Source of the DNA: Oscillospiraceae bacterium
GTDB taxonomy: Bacteria > Bacillota > Clostridia > Oscillospirales > Oscillospiraceae
Direction: 5' to 3'
Assembly: GCA_902799075.1 (NCBI GenBank)
Contig: CADBYZ010000040.1
Span: 1-42,341, forward strand
DNA length: 42,341 bases
The notes below the pieces were generated by a model. That model was not told the DNA's origin. It saw only the letters and a list, made by a program, of their open reading frames with translations, and searched no databases. This document shows positions 28,929 through 36,876 of this stretch, one piece after another. Made by a program: the position numbers and the translations under genes. Every line of letters starts with the position of its first letter. Within the stretch, counting starts at the first letter, position 1.

Positions 28929-28975
28929 ACAGCGCCCGGACGTTCCTGACAGGAGCGTCCGGGCGCTGTCTTTTT
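28929..28975 (+). terminator. Strong terminator after yabR
   Basis: A 14-bp perfect stem ACAGCGCCCGGACG/CGTCCGGGCGCTGT followed by CTTTTT. The T-tract touches the 3' end of the convergent membrane-protein gene. Confidence 0.9.
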
Positions 28976-29375
28976 ATGTTTTCCGGTAAAGCGTATAGCC
29001 GCAGCGGCAGCTGATGTGGATCTTCCCCTTGTGCCGGGGCACACGCAGCCACTTCCCGCATGAGGGACACTTGAAATATTTGTAGTCCCTGCGGTTATGG
29101 ACGCGGTCCCTCCAGGCGGCGAAGGCGTACTTTTTCTTCTCGATCCAGCGGAGCAGGAGCCGGTTTTCCGCCTCCCGCATGGGAAGGTTCCGGGAGAAGG
29201 CGCGGACAAAGGCGAGGATCAGGCCCATGAGCCCGAAGGAGCTCAGAAGCGAGCCGATGCCGCCGCCGAGGAAGGCCGACAGCCCGAGCAGCACGATGCC
29301 CGCCCAGAACAGGAGCTTGGACAGCTCGTCCATCCCCTGCCGCCCTGTGAAGATCTGACGCAGTTTTTCTTTCAT
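28974..29375 (-). CDS. Membrane protein with C-terminal zinc ribbon, unknown function
   Basis: 133 aa. Two hydrophobic helices (about 22-42 and 45-62) and a soluble C-terminal part with Cys pairs CPSCG and CRCG (about 103-128) that form a zinc-ribbon-like site. I chose ATG 29375 because AAAGGTG lies 6 bases upstream; an in-frame GTG three codons earlier overlaps that site. I do not recognise a named family. It is monocistronic and convergent with yabR. Confidence 0.75.
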   Translation of the reverse strand: MKEKLRQIFTGRQGMDELSKLLFWAGIVLLGLSAFLGGGIGSLLSSFGLMGLILAFVRAFSRNLPMREAENRLLLRWIEKKKYAFAAWRDRVHNRRDYKYFKCPSCGKWLRVPRHKGKIHISCRCGYTLYRKT

Positions 29376-29495
29376 GTCGTTCACCTTTGTTTATGATTAC
29401 TGTGCCATATTTTAGGAAGCCGCGACGCCGCTGTCAAGAGCGGGGCAAAATTGTTTACAAATTCAACACAAGCACCGATTGCCTTCAAAAAATCC

Positions 29496-29524
29496 TTGAC
29501 AATCAGCATGTATAATTATATAAT
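29496..29524 (+). promoter_or_regulatory. Promoter of the T-box leader
   Basis: TTGACA (29496-29501), 17-bp spacer, TATAAT (29519-29524): consensus in both hexamers. Confidence 0.9.
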
Positions 29525-29530
29525 CCTTGT

Positions 29531-29818
29531 CAATAATTGTATACAGCCCAAAGGCATTGATGGAGAGGGCCCGGCGGCCCGGTTTTCAGAGAGTCTGCGT
29601 TTGCTGCGAGCAGATAGCGAAGCCGCCCCATGGTCTGTCACTCCGGAGCCGGAGCGCAGAAAGCGCGGGTCTGCCCCGCGTGAGTAGAGCCTCCCGTGAA
29701 GCCGCGTAAGAGCCAAAGCGCTTGACAGAGCGCTGAGCGGCGTCCCATCGGGACGCAACAGGGGTGGTACCGCGATGTGTTTACGTCGTCCCCGGTCTTT
29801 GAACCGGGGCGTTTTTTT
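29531..29818 (+). promoter_or_regulatory. T-box riboswitch (probable tRNA-Val sensor)
   Basis: The T-box sequence AGGGGTGGTACCGCG is at 29760-29774. The stem I distal part CAGAGAG-TCTGC-GTTTGCTGCGA-GCAGA is at about 29587-29617, and the usual CACTCCGGAGC follows the specifier region. The intrinsic terminator (CCCCGGT/ACCGGGG plus seven T's) is at 29790-29818. My best reading of the specifier is GTC (valine) in TGTCACTCCGGAGC near 29639. The antiterminator bulge TGGT expects discriminator base A73, which tRNA-Val has and tRNA-Cys (the TGT alternative) does not. The AGTA/GAA loop-E motif normally beside the specifier is not evident, so the specificity is uncertain. Uncharged tRNA would turn on the downstream gene. 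Confidence 0.88.
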
Positions 29819-29842
29819 ATCCATTCAAGGGAGGAAACAAGC

Positions 29843-32125
29843 ATGGCAAAGATGGCAGATTTGGAGTACAAGATCCACGAGATCACCGACCGTATCCGCG
29901 AGCTGCGCAGCATTCTCGGCATTTCCGAGGAGGAGATGGCGTCACGCCTCGGCATCACGGTCGAGGACTACCAGGGCTATGAGGCCGGGGAAGAGGAACT
30001 GAACTTTGCCTTCCTCTACACCTGCGCTCAGATTTTGAACGTCGACGTGACCGAGCTTATCGAGGGCGTCACGCCGAGGCTTTCCAGCTACATCCTCACC
30101 CGCAGCGGCGAGGGGCGGCGCGTGGAGCAGGCCCACGGCATGACCTACTATAACCTCGCCTACAAGTTCCGCCGCCGCATCGCGGAGCCGCTGTTTGTCC
30201 ACAGCGTGTTCAGCGAGGCATCCCAGCTGCGCCCCATCGAGGTCACCACCCACGAGGGACAGGAGTTCGACATCGTCATCCGCGGCTACCTCAAGATCCA
30301 GCTCGGCCAGCACACGGAGATCCTCGGCCCCGGCGACACCATTTACTTTGACTCCACCACGCCTCACGGCATGATCGCCACCAACGGCTCGGACTGCGAC
30401 TTCTACGCCATCGTGCTCACGCCCGAGGAACAGCTGGAGCCCCAGCCCGCCGCCGAGCCCGCCATCACCGCCGTGCGCGAGGCGGGGCGCCGCCGCATTT
30501 ACGAAAACTTCATCACCCCCATCGAAGACGGGCGCGACATGCTGCGCTCTGTGCGCTTTGAAAACGCGGACCGCTTCAACTTTGCCTTCGACGTGGTGGA
30601 CGCCCTCGGCGAGCAGCAGCCGGAGAAGCTGGCGCTTTTGCATGTGGACCGCTACGGAAAGGAGACGCGCCTGACCTTCGGGCAGATGCGCAAGATGAGC
30701 GCCCGGGCCGCCAACTATTTCCGCGCCCTCGGGATCAAAAAGGGCGACAAGGTGATGCTGGTGCTGCGGCGCAACTGGCAGTTCTGGCCCATCCTGGTGG
30801 GGCTTGAAAAGCTCGGCGCGGTGGCCATCCCGGCGGTGGATCAGCTTCTGGAAAAGGACTACCTCTACCGCTTTGAGGTCGCGCACATCTCCGCCATCAT
30901 CTGCACCGCCGACGGCGACAGCACCCGGCAGGCGGCTCCCGCCATCGAGAAATACGGCAAGATCGAGACCAAAATCGTCACCAACGGCGAGGTCGAGGGC
31001 TGGCGCAGCTTCGATACGGAGTACGAGCTGTACTCCAGCCGCTTCACCCGCACCGAGGACTGCATCTGCGGCGACGATCCCATGATGATGATTTTTACCT
31101 CCGGCTCTACGGGCTACCCGAAGCTTGCGGCCCACAACTGCAAGTATCCGCTGGGCCAGTTCGTCACGGCCCGCTACTGGCACTGTGTGGACCCGGACGG
31201 CCTGCACCTGACCATCTCCGACACCGGCTGGGCCAAGGCCATGTGGGGCAAGATCTTCGGCCAGTGGCTGTGCGAGGCGGCGGTTTTCGTCTACGACTTC
31301 GACCGCTTCAACGCCGACGAGATCATGCCCATGTTCAAGAAGTACAACATCACCACCTTCTGTGCTCCCCCCACCATGTACCGCTTCTTCATCAAGCAGG
31401 ATCTGAGCAAGTACGATTTAAGCTCCATCAAGCACGCCTCCACCGCGGGCGAGGCCATGAACCCCGAGGTCTTCAACCGCTTCCGCGAGGCCACCGGTCT
31501 TTCCATCATGGAGGGCTTCGGCCAGACGGAGACCACCGTCGTCATCGGCAACTTTGTCGGGATGGTCCCGAAGATCGGCGCCATGGGCAAGCCCAATCCC
31601 CAGTACGATGTGGAGCTCATCACCCCCGAGGGAAATCCCGCTCCCGCCGGCGAGGTGGGCGAGATCTGCATCTTCACCGGCGACGGCGCGCCTTGCGGCC
31701 TCTTTGCCGGGTACTTTGAAAACGAAGAGGAGACAAGCGCCTGCTGGCACGACGGCTACTACCACACGGGGGACCTCGCGTGGCAGGACGAGGACGGCTA
31801 TTACTGGTACGTTGGCCGCGCGGACGACGTGATCAAATCCTCCGGTTACCGCATCGGGCCGTTCGAGATCGAGAGCGTGATCATGGAGCTGCCCTACGTG
31901 CTCGAGTGCGGCGTATGCGCCGTGCCGGACGAGATCCGCGGCCAGGTGGTCAAGGCCGCCATCGTGCTCGTCAAGGGCAAGGAGGGCACGGAGGAGCTCA
32001 AGAAGGAGATCCAGAACTACGTCAAGCACCGCACCGCGCCCTACAAGTACCCCCGCATTGTGGAGTTCCGGGAGGAGCTGCCCAAGACCACCAGCGGCAA
32101 GGTGATCCGCAGCAAGCTGAAATAA
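29843..32125 (+). CDS. Fusion of XRE helix-turn-helix, cupin and AMP-forming acyl-CoA synthetase (760 aa)
   Basis: Domains: XRE-type HTH at about 16-70 (LGISEEEMASRLGITVEDYQ), cupin at about 120-190 (GQEFDIVIRGYLKIQ, PGDTIYFDSTTPHGM), then an adenylate-forming acyl-CoA synthetase at about 215-760. The synthetase has the P-loop MMIFTSGSTGYPK (about 412-424), YYHTGDLAW (about 637), GRADDVIKSSGYRIGPFE, and the catalytic Lys in PKTTSGKVIRSK. It activates a carboxylic acid with ATP and CoA; the sequence resembles acetate/propionate or medium-chain ligases, and the acid is not fixed by the motifs I can read. The HTH and cupin suggest DNA binding and ligand sensing in the same chain. ATG 29843 follows GGGAGG after the T-box terminator. 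A valine T-box would fit a branched-chain acid such as isobutyrate (inference). Confidence 0.9.
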   Translation: MAKMADLEYKIHEITDRIRELRSILGISEEEMASRLGITVEDYQGYEAGEEELNFAFLYTCAQILNVDVTELIEGVTPRLSSYILTRSGEGRRVEQAHGMTYYNLAYKFRRRIAEPLFVHSVFSEASQLRPIEVTTHEGQEFDIVIRGYLKIQLGQHTEILGPGDTIYFDSTTPHGMIATNGSDCDFYAIVLTPEEQLEPQPAAEPAITAVREAGRRRIYENFITPIEDGRDMLRSVRFENADRFNFAFDVVDALGEQQPEKLALLHVDRYGKETRLTFGQMRKMSARAANYFRALGIKKGDKVMLVLRRNWQFWPILVGLEKLGAVAIPAVDQLLEKDYLYRFEVAHISAIICTADGDSTRQAAPAIEKYGKIETKIVTNGEVEGWRSFDTEYELYSSRFTRTEDCICGDDPMMMIFTSGSTGYPKLAAHNCKYPLGQFVTARYWHCVDPDGLHLTISDTGWAKAMWGKIFGQWLCEAAVFVYDFDRFNADEIMPMFKKYNITTFCAPPTMYRFFIKQDLSKYDLSSIKHASTAGEAMNPEVFNRFREATGLSIMEGFGQTETTVVIGNFVGMVPKIGAMGKPNPQYDVELITPEGNPAPAGEVGEICIFTGDGAPCGLFAGYFENEEETSACWHDGYYHTGDLAWQDEDGYYWYVGRADDVIKSSGYRIGPFEIESVIMELPYVLECGVCAVPDEIRGQVVKAAIVLVKGKEGTEELKKEIQNYVKHRTAPYKYPRIVEFREELPKTTSGKVIRSKLK

Positions 32126-32677: not shown

Positions 32678-34894
32678 TTAATCCAGGTACCTGGAAACAG
32701 CGTAGCCGCTATGGATGGCGGACTGGATTGTCTTCGGCTCATCGCAGCCGGCTGCATAGACCTCGAATCCAGCGGCTTTGATCTCGTCAAACAGTTCCAT
32801 GTTGGGAACCATATCCCAGCACTCGATCACAGTATCGCAGGGGATCACATGCTTTAAACCGGAGGCATTGAGCGTGATCGTGACGGAATCGTCGGTGACA
32901 CTATCAACCGTGGCATTATTCCAAACCTTCACGCCGTGCGCATAAAGGTGGGCACGCACATAGGTCTTTACCCAGGGGGATTGACCATCCGCGACGAACT
33001 CCGCGCCCTTTTCCTGCACGAGCTGGACGTTCTTGCCTTGGGCGATCAGATACTGGGCGAGGTCGGTCGCCTGCAGGGCAGCACCGAGAATGACAATGTT
33101 GTCCCCGAGCTTTGCACCCATAAAGCTATCCATGCCGATGACATTTGCGCCGTCAAAACGGCTCTCCCGCTTGCCACCGACCGCGACGATCACGGCATCG
33201 GGATTCTGCTCCTTGATGAAGTCCAGATCCACCGTAGTGCCGGTGACGACCTCAACGCCCTTGAGTTCCTGCTGGCGGATGAGATATTTTCTGAGATCTT
33301 CCAGTCTTTCATGCGGGCCCTTGATGGCGTTGGCAAAGAGCAGCATGCCGCCCATATAACCGTTCTTTTCGTAGAGCGTCACCTTATGGCCGCGCTCTGC
33401 CGCGATGCGGGCGGCCTCCATACCGGCGGGGCCGCCGCCGATGACCATGACCTTTTTCGGATTGGCAGCCGGGGTCAGGTCGTAGCCCTCGACAAAGCCG
33501 CCCTCCACATAGGCGTACTGGGTGGTTGCGTTGACACGGCACTTCTCGTTATCGCTCTTGAGTGCGGCCGGAGCTTTGTTGTGGCAGTGGAAGCAACGTG
33601 TGCAGGGGGCAACCTCATCGCGGCGTCCTTCCTTGAGCTTGTTGGGCAGCTCGGGATCGACCGTCAGGGGGCGGTTCATGAACAGAAGATCCAGATCTCC
33701 GTTTGCAATGGCGTTGTTCATCATATCCGGCGCGGTGCGCGGGTCCATGTAGCTTGCGCAGCCGACCGGAATATCCACTACCTTCTTGATCTCTCTGGCC
33801 ATGGGAATAAAGGCGCCTGCGCCGGAATGGGCACCGTCGTACAGACCCTGGAAATGCTTGGTGAAATCAAACTGCGTGCCATAGCCGGTAGTGCCGTTGG
33901 CGTGGTAGGCACAGAAATTGGTGTCGGTTGCCCAGCAGTTCGGCTCCATACCGATGGTGCCGACGCGCACCTGGATCAGATCGGCTCCGGCTTCCACCAA
34001 TGCCTTTGCCATGTTCTGTGCTTCTTCGATCAGGATATCGCCGTCGTTGTTGCCGAGTTCCTTATCATTTTCCTCCACGGCGTTCATGAGCACCAGGATG
34101 CCGAAATCGTCACCGCAGGCTTCACGAACGGATTTGACCATGCCCACGAAATAGCGCATACGGTTTTCCTCGTTCTGCGCGCCGTACTCATCTTCACGCT
34201 TGTTGCCGCGGCGGCTGCAATAGGCATTGAGCAGATCATTGGTAGCGCCCTTGAGCTCCACGCAGTCAAACCCGGCCTTTTTGAGACGGAGCGCCCGGTC
34301 GCCGTAGGCTTTGATCATGTTCTCGATGTCTTCAATGGAATCGTCGACGGGGTTGTTCTCCCCGACAGGAGAACCGATGCCGAACTGCACACCGATGTAA
34401 GCGCCGCCGGCATGGACGCGGTCAGCGACCTTCCTGACCTCAACGATGCCCTGCTCCTCCATTTCCGGCGCGATCGGCTTGCTCGGGTTCATGCCGAAGG
34501 GGTTGACGGTGCCGGACTCAAGCAGCACCAGCGCGGTTCCGCCGTCGGCGATGCGTCCGTAATAATCAATAGCATTCTGACTCATCTCTTTGGCGTCGCG
34601 CGGCAATGTGTCGGACCCGGCGGAGGACTTCACGATGCGATTGCGCAGGGTCATGGGGCCAACCTTGATCGGGGTAAAGATGGCAGAATAGTCCGTCGTA
34701 TAAGTGTCGTAGCTTTCGTCCTGCGGGTTCAGCTCTGTCCATGCCGGCACCGGTGCCTTGGCGGTATCCTTTGCCTCATCGGCAAAGGCGACACTCTCCT
34801 TCGCAGAGATCGCATTCAGCAGCCCGGAAGCCGCAAGCGTCGCGGCTCCGGCAATGCCGCCCTTCAAAAAATCTCTTCGTGTGATATTTCCCAT
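32678..34894 (-). CDS. Tat-exported Old Yellow Enzyme-like flavin reductase with Fe-S and FAD/NAD domains (738 aa)
   Basis: Tat signal: MGNITRRDFLKGG then a hydrophobic stretch to about residue 38. FMN-binding OYE barrel at about 65-425; a [4Fe-4S] site C431, C434, C437, C452 (CTRCFHC, then KC); and an FAD/NAD domain from about 480 with VMVIGGGPAGMEAA. This is the architecture of 2-enoate and 2,4-dienoyl-CoA reductases and of BaiCD-type bile acid enzymes, which are usually cytoplasmic. Odd: the HGAH pair that binds the substrate carbonyl in this family is KGAT (K215-T218) here, although the surrounding NKREDEYG and NEENR blocks are conserved. ATG 34894 has AAAGGAG upstream. It lies downstream of an FMN_bind flavoprotein in the same direction; both probably act outside the membrane on an organic electron acceptor. 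Confidence 0.9.
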   Translation of the reverse strand: MGNITRRDFLKGGIAGAATLAASGLLNAISAKESVAFADEAKDTAKAPVPAWTELNPQDESYDTYTTDYSAIFTPIKVGPMTLRNRIVKSSAGSDTLPRDAKEMSQNAIDYYGRIADGGTALVLLESGTVNPFGMNPSKPIAPEMEEQGIVEVRKVADRVHAGGAYIGVQFGIGSPVGENNPVDDSIEDIENMIKAYGDRALRLKKAGFDCVELKGATNDLLNAYCSRRGNKREDEYGAQNEENRMRYFVGMVKSVREACGDDFGILVLMNAVEENDKELGNNDGDILIEEAQNMAKALVEAGADLIQVRVGTIGMEPNCWATDTNFCAYHANGTTGYGTQFDFTKHFQGLYDGAHSGAGAFIPMAREIKKVVDIPVGCASYMDPRTAPDMMNNAIANGDLDLLFMNRPLTVDPELPNKLKEGRRDEVAPCTRCFHCHNKAPAALKSDNEKCRVNATTQYAYVEGGFVEGYDLTPAANPKKVMVIGGGPAGMEAARIAAERGHKVTLYEKNGYMGGMLLFANAIKGPHERLEDLRKYLIRQQELKGVEVVTGTTVDLDFIKEQNPDAVIVAVGGKRESRFDGANVIGMDSFMGAKLGDNIVILGAALQATDLAQYLIAQGKNVQLVQEKGAEFVADGQSPWVKTYVRAHLYAHGVKVWNNATVDSVTDDSVTITLNASGLKHVIPCDTVIECWDMVPNMELFDEIKAAGFEVYAAGCDEPKTIQSAIHSGYAVSRYLD

Positions 34895-35016: not shown

Positions 35017-36876
35017 TCACAGCTTTGCCACGTACTCACCGGTCACATAACCGCCGGTGACACAGCGGCCAAGGGACATGCCCATGGTGAAAAGGCTGTA
35101 GTCGATGCCGCCGTAGAAGGGACCGGAGCAGTTTCCGGCAGCGAACAGACCGTCAATCAGAGTACCGTCGGCTGCCTTCACCTGACCGTTTGCGTCCGTG
35201 ACCAGACCGCCGAGCAGCGCGGAGACCTGGAAATAGCGCTTCGTGCCATAGAAAGGCGCGGTGTCCACAGGCTTCATGTACTTGGCAGGCTTGCCGAAAT
35301 CTTCGTCAAAACCGGCTTTGCACAGCTCGTTATAGCGCTTGACAGTAGCGATGGTGGTCTCAACAGGCAGGCCCATCTTTTCGCACAGCTCCTCCAGTGT
35401 GTCCGCTACGAGGACATTGCCGTTGTCAATGAACTTCTTGATCTGTTCGGGGCTTGCGTTGCCGACAGTGGAGCGATCCGGATCGCCGCCCCAGCCGACC
35501 ACCTGATCGTGGTAGTTGGCGTCAAAGATCGTGTTCCAGCAGCCGTTGGGCTCATAGGCAACACAGGTGTTGCGCTGACCGTAGGGCACATCCTCAGCCA
35601 CAAAGCGCTCACCGTTGTCGTTGACAGCCAGCAGTGGTTCCTCGCGCATAACGCTGGTGGCCTTGGCATGGATCATCTTGGTGTGGGTGATGGGTTCCAG
35701 CTCCGCACCGATCAGCATACCCATGAGCTGACCGTCGCCGGTTTTGGCAAACTGCTTTTTCTCAAACAGCGCCGCATCCGGGCAATAGCGTGCGACCATA
35801 GCGGCATTGTTCTGATAGTCGCCGGTGGCGAGAATGACACCTTTATTGGCGCGGAAGCAGATGTGAGAACCGTTCTTGGTGCGGCCTATGACGCCGCTTA
35901 CCTTGCCGCCGTCGGCAACAAGTTGAACGGCGGGAGTTTCATAGTAGAAGTCGATGCCGAGCTTCTCAGCATATTCCGCCAGTGCGGTGGTGGGCTCAAG
36001 CATGCTTCCGGGGAAGAGCGTGCCGCGCAGGTAGCAGTTGCCCTCCTCATACTGATGGTCAAGGGTCTCCTTCTCCATCATGTTCTCGAAGCCGATCTCA
36101 TTAAGGTGATTGAGATACCAGTCCACCGCCTCGCCGGAACGCTGTACATACACGCGATTGAGGGCCAGATCCGTGCGGTAGTCGTATGTTGCGTGCAGCT
36201 CATGCAGGAAAGCAGACATGCCGGCGGGCGTGCTCTTTTCCGGGATGACTGCCGCACAGCACATGCCCTGGGCGACAGCGGCGCCACTCTTTTGCAGCAC
36301 GCAGACGGAAGCGCCCTCTTCAAAGGCTTTGATTGCGGCAGGCAGACCAGTGGTTCCGGCGCCGACAACAACCACGTCATAGGTCTTCTCATCGTCGAAG
36401 GTAGTGATCGGATCTTTCTCAACTGTGGACTCTGCCAGCAGTGCGTCGATGGAATCGCCGGTCACGGCTGCTTCTTCCTTTTCCTCAGCCTCAAGTCCGA
36501 GGGCCTGCCTGATGCAGTTTGCAGCAGCTTCCTTGACGCCGTTGGAGGTCATCGTTGCGCCAGTGACACCATCGATGTCGGCAGACTGTTTTTCCAAAAG
36601 CTGTGCGCGAAGTGTTTCACCGTGGATGCCGCCGATTTCCGGGGTCTCGGCAGATACATCCACCTGTACATCCGTGATTTTGGTTTCATCAAAGGTCATG
36701 GTGACAATGACCTTTTCCTTGCCCGGCGCTTCAGCGCTGTAGGTACCGGGAATATAGAGCTTTTCGCCCTCGTCGGCGTAGGCGGTCAGCGTGGACGGAA
36801 GCGCGCTCAGCACAGCAGCGGCAGCCGTACCCTTGACAGCCAGCTTCAGGAACTCTTTACGATTCATTTCTTTCAT
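35017..36876 (-). CDS. Exported FMN_bind / FAD fumarate-reductase-like flavoprotein (619 aa)
   Basis: An N-terminal export signal with a Tat-like RK variant (MNRKEFLKLAVKG) and hydrophobic core to about residue 34. An FMN_bind domain at about 42-125 holds the flavinylation motif DGVTGATMT (T108 would carry covalent FMN added by an ApbE-type enzyme). A linker is followed by a flavocytochrome-c/fumarate-reductase-type FAD domain from about 166 (YDVVVVGAGTTGLPAAIKAF) to the end (GLFAAGNCSGPFYGGIDYSL). Such proteins take electrons from the membrane and reduce extracellular organic acceptors; the acceptor here is unknown. ATG 36876 is 6 bases after GGAGGG; an ATG three codons later is possible. 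Divergent from the LysR gene. No ApbE, NQR/RNF or cytochrome partner is in the window. Confidence 0.9.
   Translation of the reverse strand: MKEMNRKEFLKLAVKGTAAAAVLSALPSTLTAYADEGEKLYIPGTYSAEAPGKEKVIVTMTFDETKITDVQVDVSAETPEIGGIHGETLRAQLLEKQSADIDGVTGATMTSNGVKEAAANCIRQALGLEAEEKEEAAVTGDSIDALLAESTVEKDPITTFDDEKTYDVVVVGAGTTGLPAAIKAFEEGASVCVLQKSGAAVAQGMCCAAVIPEKSTPAGMSAFLHELHATYDYRTDLALNRVYVQRSGEAVDWYLNHLNEIGFENMMEKETLDHQYEEGNCYLRGTLFPGSMLEPTTALAEYAEKLGIDFYYETPAVQLVADGGKVSGVIGRTKNGSHICFRANKGVILATGDYQNNAAMVARYCPDAALFEKKQFAKTGDGQLMGMLIGAELEPITHTKMIHAKATSVMREEPLLAVNDNGERFVAEDVPYGQRNTCVAYEPNGCWNTIFDANYHDQVVGWGGDPDRSTVGNASPEQIKKFIDNGNVLVADTLEELCEKMGLPVETTIATVKRYNELCKAGFDEDFGKPAKYMKPVDTAPFYGTKRYFQVSALLGGLVTDANGQVKAADGTLIDGLFAAGNCSGPFYGGIDYSLFTMGMSLGRCVTGGYVTGEYVAKL

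Follow-up and report, generated by a model that had tools for sequence, protein, structure and literature searches.

A valine-type T-box leader precedes a gene for an XRE-cupin-acyl-CoA ligase fusion protein in an Oscillospiraceae bacterium

In the 42,341-nucleotide contig CADBYZ010000040.1 of an Oscillospiraceae bacterium (assembly GCA_902799075.1; hereafter the window), a T-box leader with a valine specifier codon precedes a gene whose product joins an XRE-type helix-turn-helix (HTH) domain, a cupin domain and an AMP-forming acyl-CoA ligase in one chain. We consider it probable that this protein is a tRNA-Val-controlled isobutyrate:CoA ligase serving valine synthesis by reductive carboxylation, with a 2-methylbutyrate/isoleucine twin. 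The leader, its specifier, the gene neighbourhoods, the co-occurrence of genes across genomes and a link between one pocket residue of the ligase and the specifier are established below. A first-pass annotation of this DNA had proposed a branched-acid ligase feeding valine through reductive carboxylation, and the evidence gathered here supports that proposal indirectly. For several rumen bacteria, isobutyrate, 2-methylbutyrate or isovalerate is a required growth factor, from which they build branched-chain amino acids.

Results

All four elements of the complete leader that had been claimed (promoter, stem I, T-box and terminator) were located on the plus strand. The sigma-70-like promoter matches the consensus at 12/12 positions (-35 TTGACA, 29496-29501; 17-nt spacer; -10 TATAAT, 29519-29524). 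From stem I to the antiterminator, the leader (29548-29796) aligns with the full Rfam T-box model (RF00230, model positions 1-219) at 77.9 bits and an E value of 2.4e-17. This is under the Rfam gathering score of 93; a scan at the gathering threshold was silent, and the leader was recovered in E-value mode. Of the seven T-boxes found in the same genome (G000, 75.7% complete), five score below 93 bits, this leader and those before pheS (78.3) and alaS (72.9) among them, and two reach at least 93. The fold z-score of the leader was -3.09. Since 70 of 89 distinct fused relatives have a recognisable T-box with a readable specifier, the T-box leader is confirmed as real and as more than a chance match.

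Stem I contains CAGAGAG (29587-29593, placed by the covariance-model alignment), which is presumably the AG-bulge region; its CAGAGA is invariant across 16 aligned leaders. The T-box core AACAGGGGTGGTACCGCG occupies 29757-29774, with UGGU (29765-29768) opposite the tRNA 3' ACCA, and is followed by the antiterminator 3' arm CGTCGTCCCC (29784-29793). The intrinsic terminator CCCCGGTCTTTGAACCGGGG with its T-run spans 29790-29818 (hairpin part 29790-29809), and a ribosome-binding-like GGGAGG (29829-29834) stands before the ATG at 29843. Inspection by eye indicated that antiterminator and terminator are mutually exclusive, CCCC at 29790-29793 being common to both. Likewise by eye, the 16-leader alignment showed a two-sided change (GAG / CTC) of the antiterminator helix in the isoleucine and GUA-type valine leaders. 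The gene behind the leader seems solitary, as the nearest long open reading frames (28974-29384 and 32678-34894) lie on the opposite strand.

The covariance-model alignment placed the specifier codon GUC at 29637-29639, followed by A at 29640, in agreement with the valine specifier first suggested. In five other T-boxes of G000 this position yields a fitting amino acid, namely Val, Phe, Ala, Leu and Trp: it reads GUC ahead of valS (a 173-residue open reading frame lies between leader and gene), UUC before pheS, GCC before alaS, CUC before a LeuA-like gene and UGG before a TrpX-like gene, whose T-box core reads UGGC. AUC stands there before a paralogue of the ligase. The valS, pheS and alaS products passed their NCBIfam cut-offs, and the LeuA-like (282 of 532; 250 of 598.7) and TrpX-like (207 of 390) products missed them. 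Because the same position fits these five genes, the shifted codon readings UGU, CUG and UCA were dropped. A tRNA-Val with anticodon GAC and the 3' end A73-CCA is encoded in the genome, and the UGGU of the leader matches its A73, so that the expected discriminator match was found as well.

The gene (29843-32125, plus strand) encodes 760 residues, and Pfam domains agree with the claimed single chain of HTH, cupin sensor-type domain and AMP-forming ligase. Five of the six Pfam families listed passed their cut-offs, HTH_31 being the one that failed. The HTH domain (HTH_19/HTH_3) covers residues 17-76 (29891-30070) and the cupin domain (Cupin_2) residues 135-190 (30245-30412), so that both parts of an XRE-cupin protein are present. 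The ligase, residues 227-758 (30521-32116), contains AMP-binding (257-624) and AMP-binding_C (675-753) domains and has the fold of the medium-chain acyl-CoA synthetase (MACS) type. Its closest solved structure is 3etc, the MacsMa enzyme of Methanosarcina acetivorans, to which it aligned over the full length (E value 2.2e-182). A structure model gave a template-modelling score of 0.86 against 3etc, by target length, with a mean predicted local distance difference score of 80.9 and low confidence at residues 461-464. By an alignment in which the chain-numbering offset of 23 was counted by hand, W468 and K465 correspond to W259 and K256 of MacsMa. Ala464 (codon 31232-31234), next after W463 in the acyl-pocket motif TGWAKAMWGK, aligns with the Gly beside K256.

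A search for related loci (numbered with L) yielded 71, the final few of weak similarity, and of 300 family genomes searched, 132 contained a match with an E value of at most 1e-150, counting fused and unfused genes alike. From the loci in hand we assembled 89 distinct full-length fused proteins, leaving out duplicates (identical last 600 residues), rows covering at most 700 query residues, and L079/L080 as copies of L008/L009. Their leaders comprise 40 with valine specifiers (17 GUC, 23 GUA), 30 with isoleucine specifiers (AUC) and 19 without a recognised T-box; no other specifier occurs among the 70 readable leaders. Three of the 70 were read by hand, replacing script readings (L034 4995, L037 2322 and L102 1384). 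The valine reading survives this comparison of orthologous leaders, in which unrelated specifiers would have spoken against it, because every readable specifier is Val or Ile. On the full-length tree (all trees are quick LG+G4 trees), the Val/Ile label switches once. Eighteen loci hold two fused copies, and in the 15 with both specifiers readable, one copy is of the isoleucine and one of the valine type.

In a further 12 relatives, the XRE-cupin and ligase parts are adjacent genes behind one T-box; Pfam domains were confirmed for two of these. The fusion is thus not an essential trait, and two arrangements of these parts exist. We also noted split pairs with the motif GWAKFGWGK and no recognised T-box (L153, L154, L155, L156, L157, L144:3991-6219 and L060:905-3145), which by sequence are a third subgroup.

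The specifier is closely linked to one residue of the ligase. Position 464 is the sole ligase position without a common residue between the 40 valine-type (Ala) and 30 isoleucine-type (Gly) fused enzymes; in the N-terminal half, this holds for positions 97, 100 and 117. When split-gene and unfused relatives were included, residue 464 agreed with the specifier in all 86 rows (42/42 Val with Ala, 44/44 Ile with Gly), a set in which two specifiers were read by hand, with 34 further rows lacking a specifier. The script for these rows favoured Ile, Val and Leu codons at ambiguous places and is hence biased; its readings for L102 (GTC) and L034 (TTG) were replaced by hand readings, L037 was read as ATC, and without the hand readings there is one mismatch (L102). 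Most split-gene specifiers were also read without codon preference, those of L174 and L175 coming from the preferring script alone. A smaller residue (Gly) for the larger acid would be chemically sensible. The split-gene copy of L164 combines GUC with Ala, in contrast to the AUC and Gly of its nearest relatives; the fused copy of that genome is of the Gly type, with no T-box within the fetched stretch.

On the whole-ligase tree, specifier and residue 464 co-change in 6/6 pairs (sign test, p = 0.031). A single isoleucine clade was rejected by the approximately unbiased test for residues 230-462 (p = 0.017) and allowed for the whole ligase (0.088) and for residues 621-757 (0.11), 230-620 (0.074), 466-620 (0.55) and 400-560 (0.60), the long branch L050_4638 being left out of these tests. 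The XRE-cupin tree of the fused rows shows a single change of the specifier and a single change of residue 464, and the ligase tree shows six of each; from this comparison, 6 of 120 rows were dropped because their N-terminal part was unusable. In the 15 tandem pairs, the two N-terminal blocks have mean identities of 41% and 50%, with 54-63% for same-type copies across genomes; the last two ligase blocks have 82% and 84%, with 79-84% across genomes. This pattern suggests gene conversion between tandem copies in the ligase part. As a proof of such conversion with the sensor half kept apart, it was weakened by the block-wise tests.

The genes required for the proposed pathway lie near the isoleucine-type paralogue. 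Its run in G000 consists of the isoleucine T-box, the ligase paralogue (L109:12420-14720), a P-loop ATPase, vor alpha, beta and gamma for a 2-oxoacid:ferredoxin oxidoreductase (VOR), a CN-hydrolase and ilvE, whose product exceeds its NCBIfam cut-off (444 vs 307). The genome thus encodes both VOR and a branched-chain transaminase, as reductive carboxylation requires. In L032-L034, L037, L041-L043, L063 and L066, the ATPase and vor genes come after an Ile/Val pair, and ilvE lies within the fetched stretch in L034, L037, L042, L043, L063 and L066. More distant vor genes, upstream on the other strand, were found in L017, L021, L024-L026 and L031. In genome G012, a leucine T-box operon precedes the isoleucine and valine ones, all ahead of ilvE and vor genes. 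The P-loop ATPase (L109:14722-15423 and relatives), which a Pfam match below threshold marks as ParA/CbiA-like, occurs together with the vor genes in many clusters.

We compared genomes with and without the fused gene among the 300 family genomes, G000 included, using an E value of 1e-230 or better as a stand-in for fusion (90 genomes) and counting VOR by its alpha subunit (E value 1e-120). VOR was present in 56/90 fused-gene genomes vs 13/210 others and ilvC in 21/90 vs 130/210, by Fisher tests that ignore phylogeny. Among genomes at least 90% complete, ilvC was found in 18/51 with the fused gene vs 91/137 without. No ilvC match occurred in the incomplete G000 or in any of the five genus relatives drawn, of which only G174 has the fused gene. 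Among 20 genomes picked for the fused gene or genus membership, ilvD was found in one, G000, and there as a partial match below its cut-off.

Discussion

As a rule, T-boxes activate their genes when an amino acid runs short. In the mechanism that we propose, when charged tRNA-Val drops, uncharged tRNA-Val (GAC, A73) would pair with the specifier GUC and with the UGGU of the T-box core. This pairing would stabilise the antiterminator, and transcription would pass the terminator. The product would convert isobutyrate, ATP and CoA to isobutyryl-CoA, which the VOR encoded in the isoleucine operon of the same genome would reductively carboxylate to 2-oxoisovalerate, and IlvE would transaminate the latter to valine. 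The paralogue behind the isoleucine T-box would play the same role with 2-methylbutyrate.

Several observations weigh against this proposal. As only residues 230-462 reject a single isoleucine clade, no more than two joint changes of specifier and residue 464 can safely be taken as separate: one lies within the fused family, the other among the split genes (L164, whose forks have Shimodaira-Hasegawa-like approximate likelihood ratio support of 88-89). The 86 rows also include near relatives. The valine-type gene of G000 does not adjoin the VOR genes, and the vor alpha frame of that genome is broken. A partial ilvD-like match (491.8 bits, cut-off 618) lies at a contig edge in G000. Among the 90 fused-gene genomes, 21 keep ilvC and 34 lack a VOR match at the threshold used; therefore, the pathway is no strict replacement. 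The ligase scored 418.2 bits against the MbcS equivalog model, for which 850 are required. Finally, the T-box was not recognised in 19/89 fused relatives, and 8 of these are 89-92% identical; since these eight orthologues have no full T-box, it appears dispensable in some lineages.

Of the 19 rows, L010 and L046 have an upstream stretch of fewer than 300 bases, and those of L024 and L025 are second copies placed immediately behind the first. By eye, L010 (1-270) and L012 (4481-5000) have a short leader with a promoter, a T-box-like core GATGGTACCGCA and a terminator, too short for stem I, which is apparently absent; these are apparently T-box remnants or a reduced attenuator. Inspected in the same way, L011 and L013 retain a terminator-like hairpin, and L014-L016 and L018 have neither a T-box remnant nor such a hairpin. 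In a Prevotella sp. metagenome-assembled genome (L067:5013-7262), an XRE-cupin gene directly precedes a Gly464-type ligase with no recognised T-box, so that beyond the Firmicutes such a pair may do without a T-box. As for the broken frame, vor alpha lies in two frames at L109:15552-16546 in G000 and is whole in the related genome G174, where it exceeds the VorB cut-off (534.9 vs 399); the split stems either from a fault in the assembly or from a break of recent date.

The role of the N-terminal half allows another explanation, in which the fusion is a true DNA-binding trigger enzyme whose XRE domain represses its own or other promoters according to a ligand of the cupin or the ligase. HTH_19 and HTH_3 exceed their Pfam cut-offs, and known XRE-cupin proteins are described as transcription regulators (PMC7901475). 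A PADLOC search returned a weak HTH match and nothing else. Net charge, an indirect proxy for DNA binding, argues otherwise: it is -9 for the HTH of the window protein and averages -7.1, -5.1 and -7.4 in fused proteins of the valine type, of the isoleucine type and without T-box, respectively, whereas 26 other HTH_3 matches of G000 and G174, two genomes of the genus, average +1.1 and span -2 to +6. These 26 were read from 33 such matches, the remaining four of 37 being fused proteins, and include near-identical pairs between the two genomes. Three of the 30 isoleucine members have charges of -1 or 0. By this proxy, the domain departs from the non-acidic HTH expected of an XRE-cupin regulator, and because it is so acidic, a working DNA-binding regulator, which the first-pass annotation had assumed, is doubtful. 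We regard the DNA-binding explanation as unlikely. The weakest step of our own account is what the XRE-cupin half does instead: we infer that it probably detects an effector and modulates the activity of the enzyme. The cupin residues H137, G139, E141, D143 and H175 are identical in 89/89 fused proteins. A tentative extension, which we put forward as a possibility somewhat short of an even chance, is that this half is an amino-acid- or acyl-specific allosteric sensor derived from a DNA-binding regulator. The enzyme would then be under a double lock on the same amino acid, through the T-box with tRNA-Val or tRNA-Ile and through a matching cupin effector, with residue 464 setting the acid.

A less probable alternative is that the branched acyl-CoA formed by the ligase primes the synthesis of branched-chain fatty acids, with the T-box merely reporting shortage of branched amino acids. 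The best NCBIfam model for both paralogues is MbcS (NF047394), below cut-off, and MbcS of Staphylococcus aureus feeds fatty acid synthesis from 2-methylbutyrate and isobutyrate, hardly activating isovalerate (PMC10026030). The clusters with vor and ilvE, the separate valine and isoleucine copies with specifiers of their own and the lower frequency of ilvC among genomes with the fused gene fit amino acid synthesis better. The comparison with MbcS, where the same two acids are used, also has its differences: the window ligase reaches about half the equivalog cut-off (418 of 850), MbcS serves lipid synthesis, and in the account of PMC10026030 one enzyme handles both acids rather than two. At most, the window ligase works like MbcS. 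The term "T-box" is absent from the main text of that paper.

It is more improbable still that the ligase prefers another acid, such as an aryl or medium-chain one, and that the valine and isoleucine specifiers are a broader starvation signal. The substrate range of this ligase family is hard to read from sequence, and MacsMa, which depends critically on Trp259 to bind its substrate, adenylates acids from C3 to C8 with a preference for 2-methylbutyrate (PMC10455477). Against this stands the full agreement between specifier and residue 464, which extends to the nested valine case L164 in the split-gene group. MacsMa itself has Gly at the 464 position together with its preference for 2-methylbutyrate, as in the isoleucine-labelled paralogues and unlike Ala464 of the window protein; the matched MacsMa chain has no XRE-cupin part. 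That the pathway runs oxidatively, with VOR degrading branched 2-oxoacids and the ligase reversed to conserve energy, is very improbable, since a T-box responds to scarcity of an amino acid, when degradation would be ill-timed, and since genomes with these genes often yielded no ilvC and usually no leuB, even though VOR enzymes are reversible and several are catabolic.

The leader itself resembles the transcription-terminating class of T-boxes (RF00230) in its stem I specifier, T-box core, antiterminator/terminator switch and discriminator pairing. It differs in what it controls: in place of a synthetase, transporter or classic ilv/leu gene, it precedes an acyl-CoA ligase whose product would provide a carbon skeleton. 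The protein shares the order of HTH and Cupin_2 with XRE-cupin regulators of the Pseudomonas type and differs in its acidic HTH and in being fused to, or encoded directly before, a ligase. With the reductive carboxylation known from the rumen, the proposed route has in common the branched acid, its acyl-CoA, VOR and a transaminase; what we add are proposed genes for the activating step and a tRNA-specific control. The parts are thus of known kinds, and the combination and the matched Val/Ile pairs were not met in the literature searched. No T-box before such a ligase is described in its titles and abstract openings, an incomplete coverage. The article proper of one T-box survey (PMC2494555) does not mention acyl-CoA, CoA ligase, AMP-binding, ferredoxin, acetyl-CoA synthetase or cupin; that of another (PMC3766115) does not mention acyl-CoA, CoA ligase, ferredoxin, indolepyruvate or 2-oxoacid. 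The statement that a regulator-enzyme fusion under tRNA control is undescribed is therefore uncontradicted as far as this search extends, a narrower claim than absence from print.

If our proposal is true, the gene in the window is one that activates the acid for valine synthesis, and its paralogue does so for isoleucine. It would also offer a one-residue basis for telling isobutyrate from 2-methylbutyrate together with a tRNA-based control circuit, and the branched acids that a gut bacterium can assimilate would be predictable from its genome. Branched-acid assimilation by rumen bacteria would become testable gene by gene, and the joint alteration of a codon in the RNA leader and a residue in the enzyme pocket would represent a natural experiment.

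Two further sets of genes were observed. At L109:8162-12037, L210:804-4870 and L211:1418-5406, a T-box with a leucine specifier (CUC or CUG) stands before two genes, one LeuA-like and one that joins a xylose-isomerase-like TIM barrel to an acyl-CoA ligase, the fusion having 839 residues in L210. This fusion may be an isovalerate:CoA ligase for leucine, since leuB was above cut-off in 0/11 genomes searched, with one sub-threshold match. In the window, two adjoining flavoenzyme genes lie downstream of the fused gene on the minus strand, one of the Oxidored_FMN/Pyr_redox type with a match to a twin-arginine translocation (TAT) signal (32678-34894) and one of the FMN_bind/FAD_binding_2 type (35017-36876).

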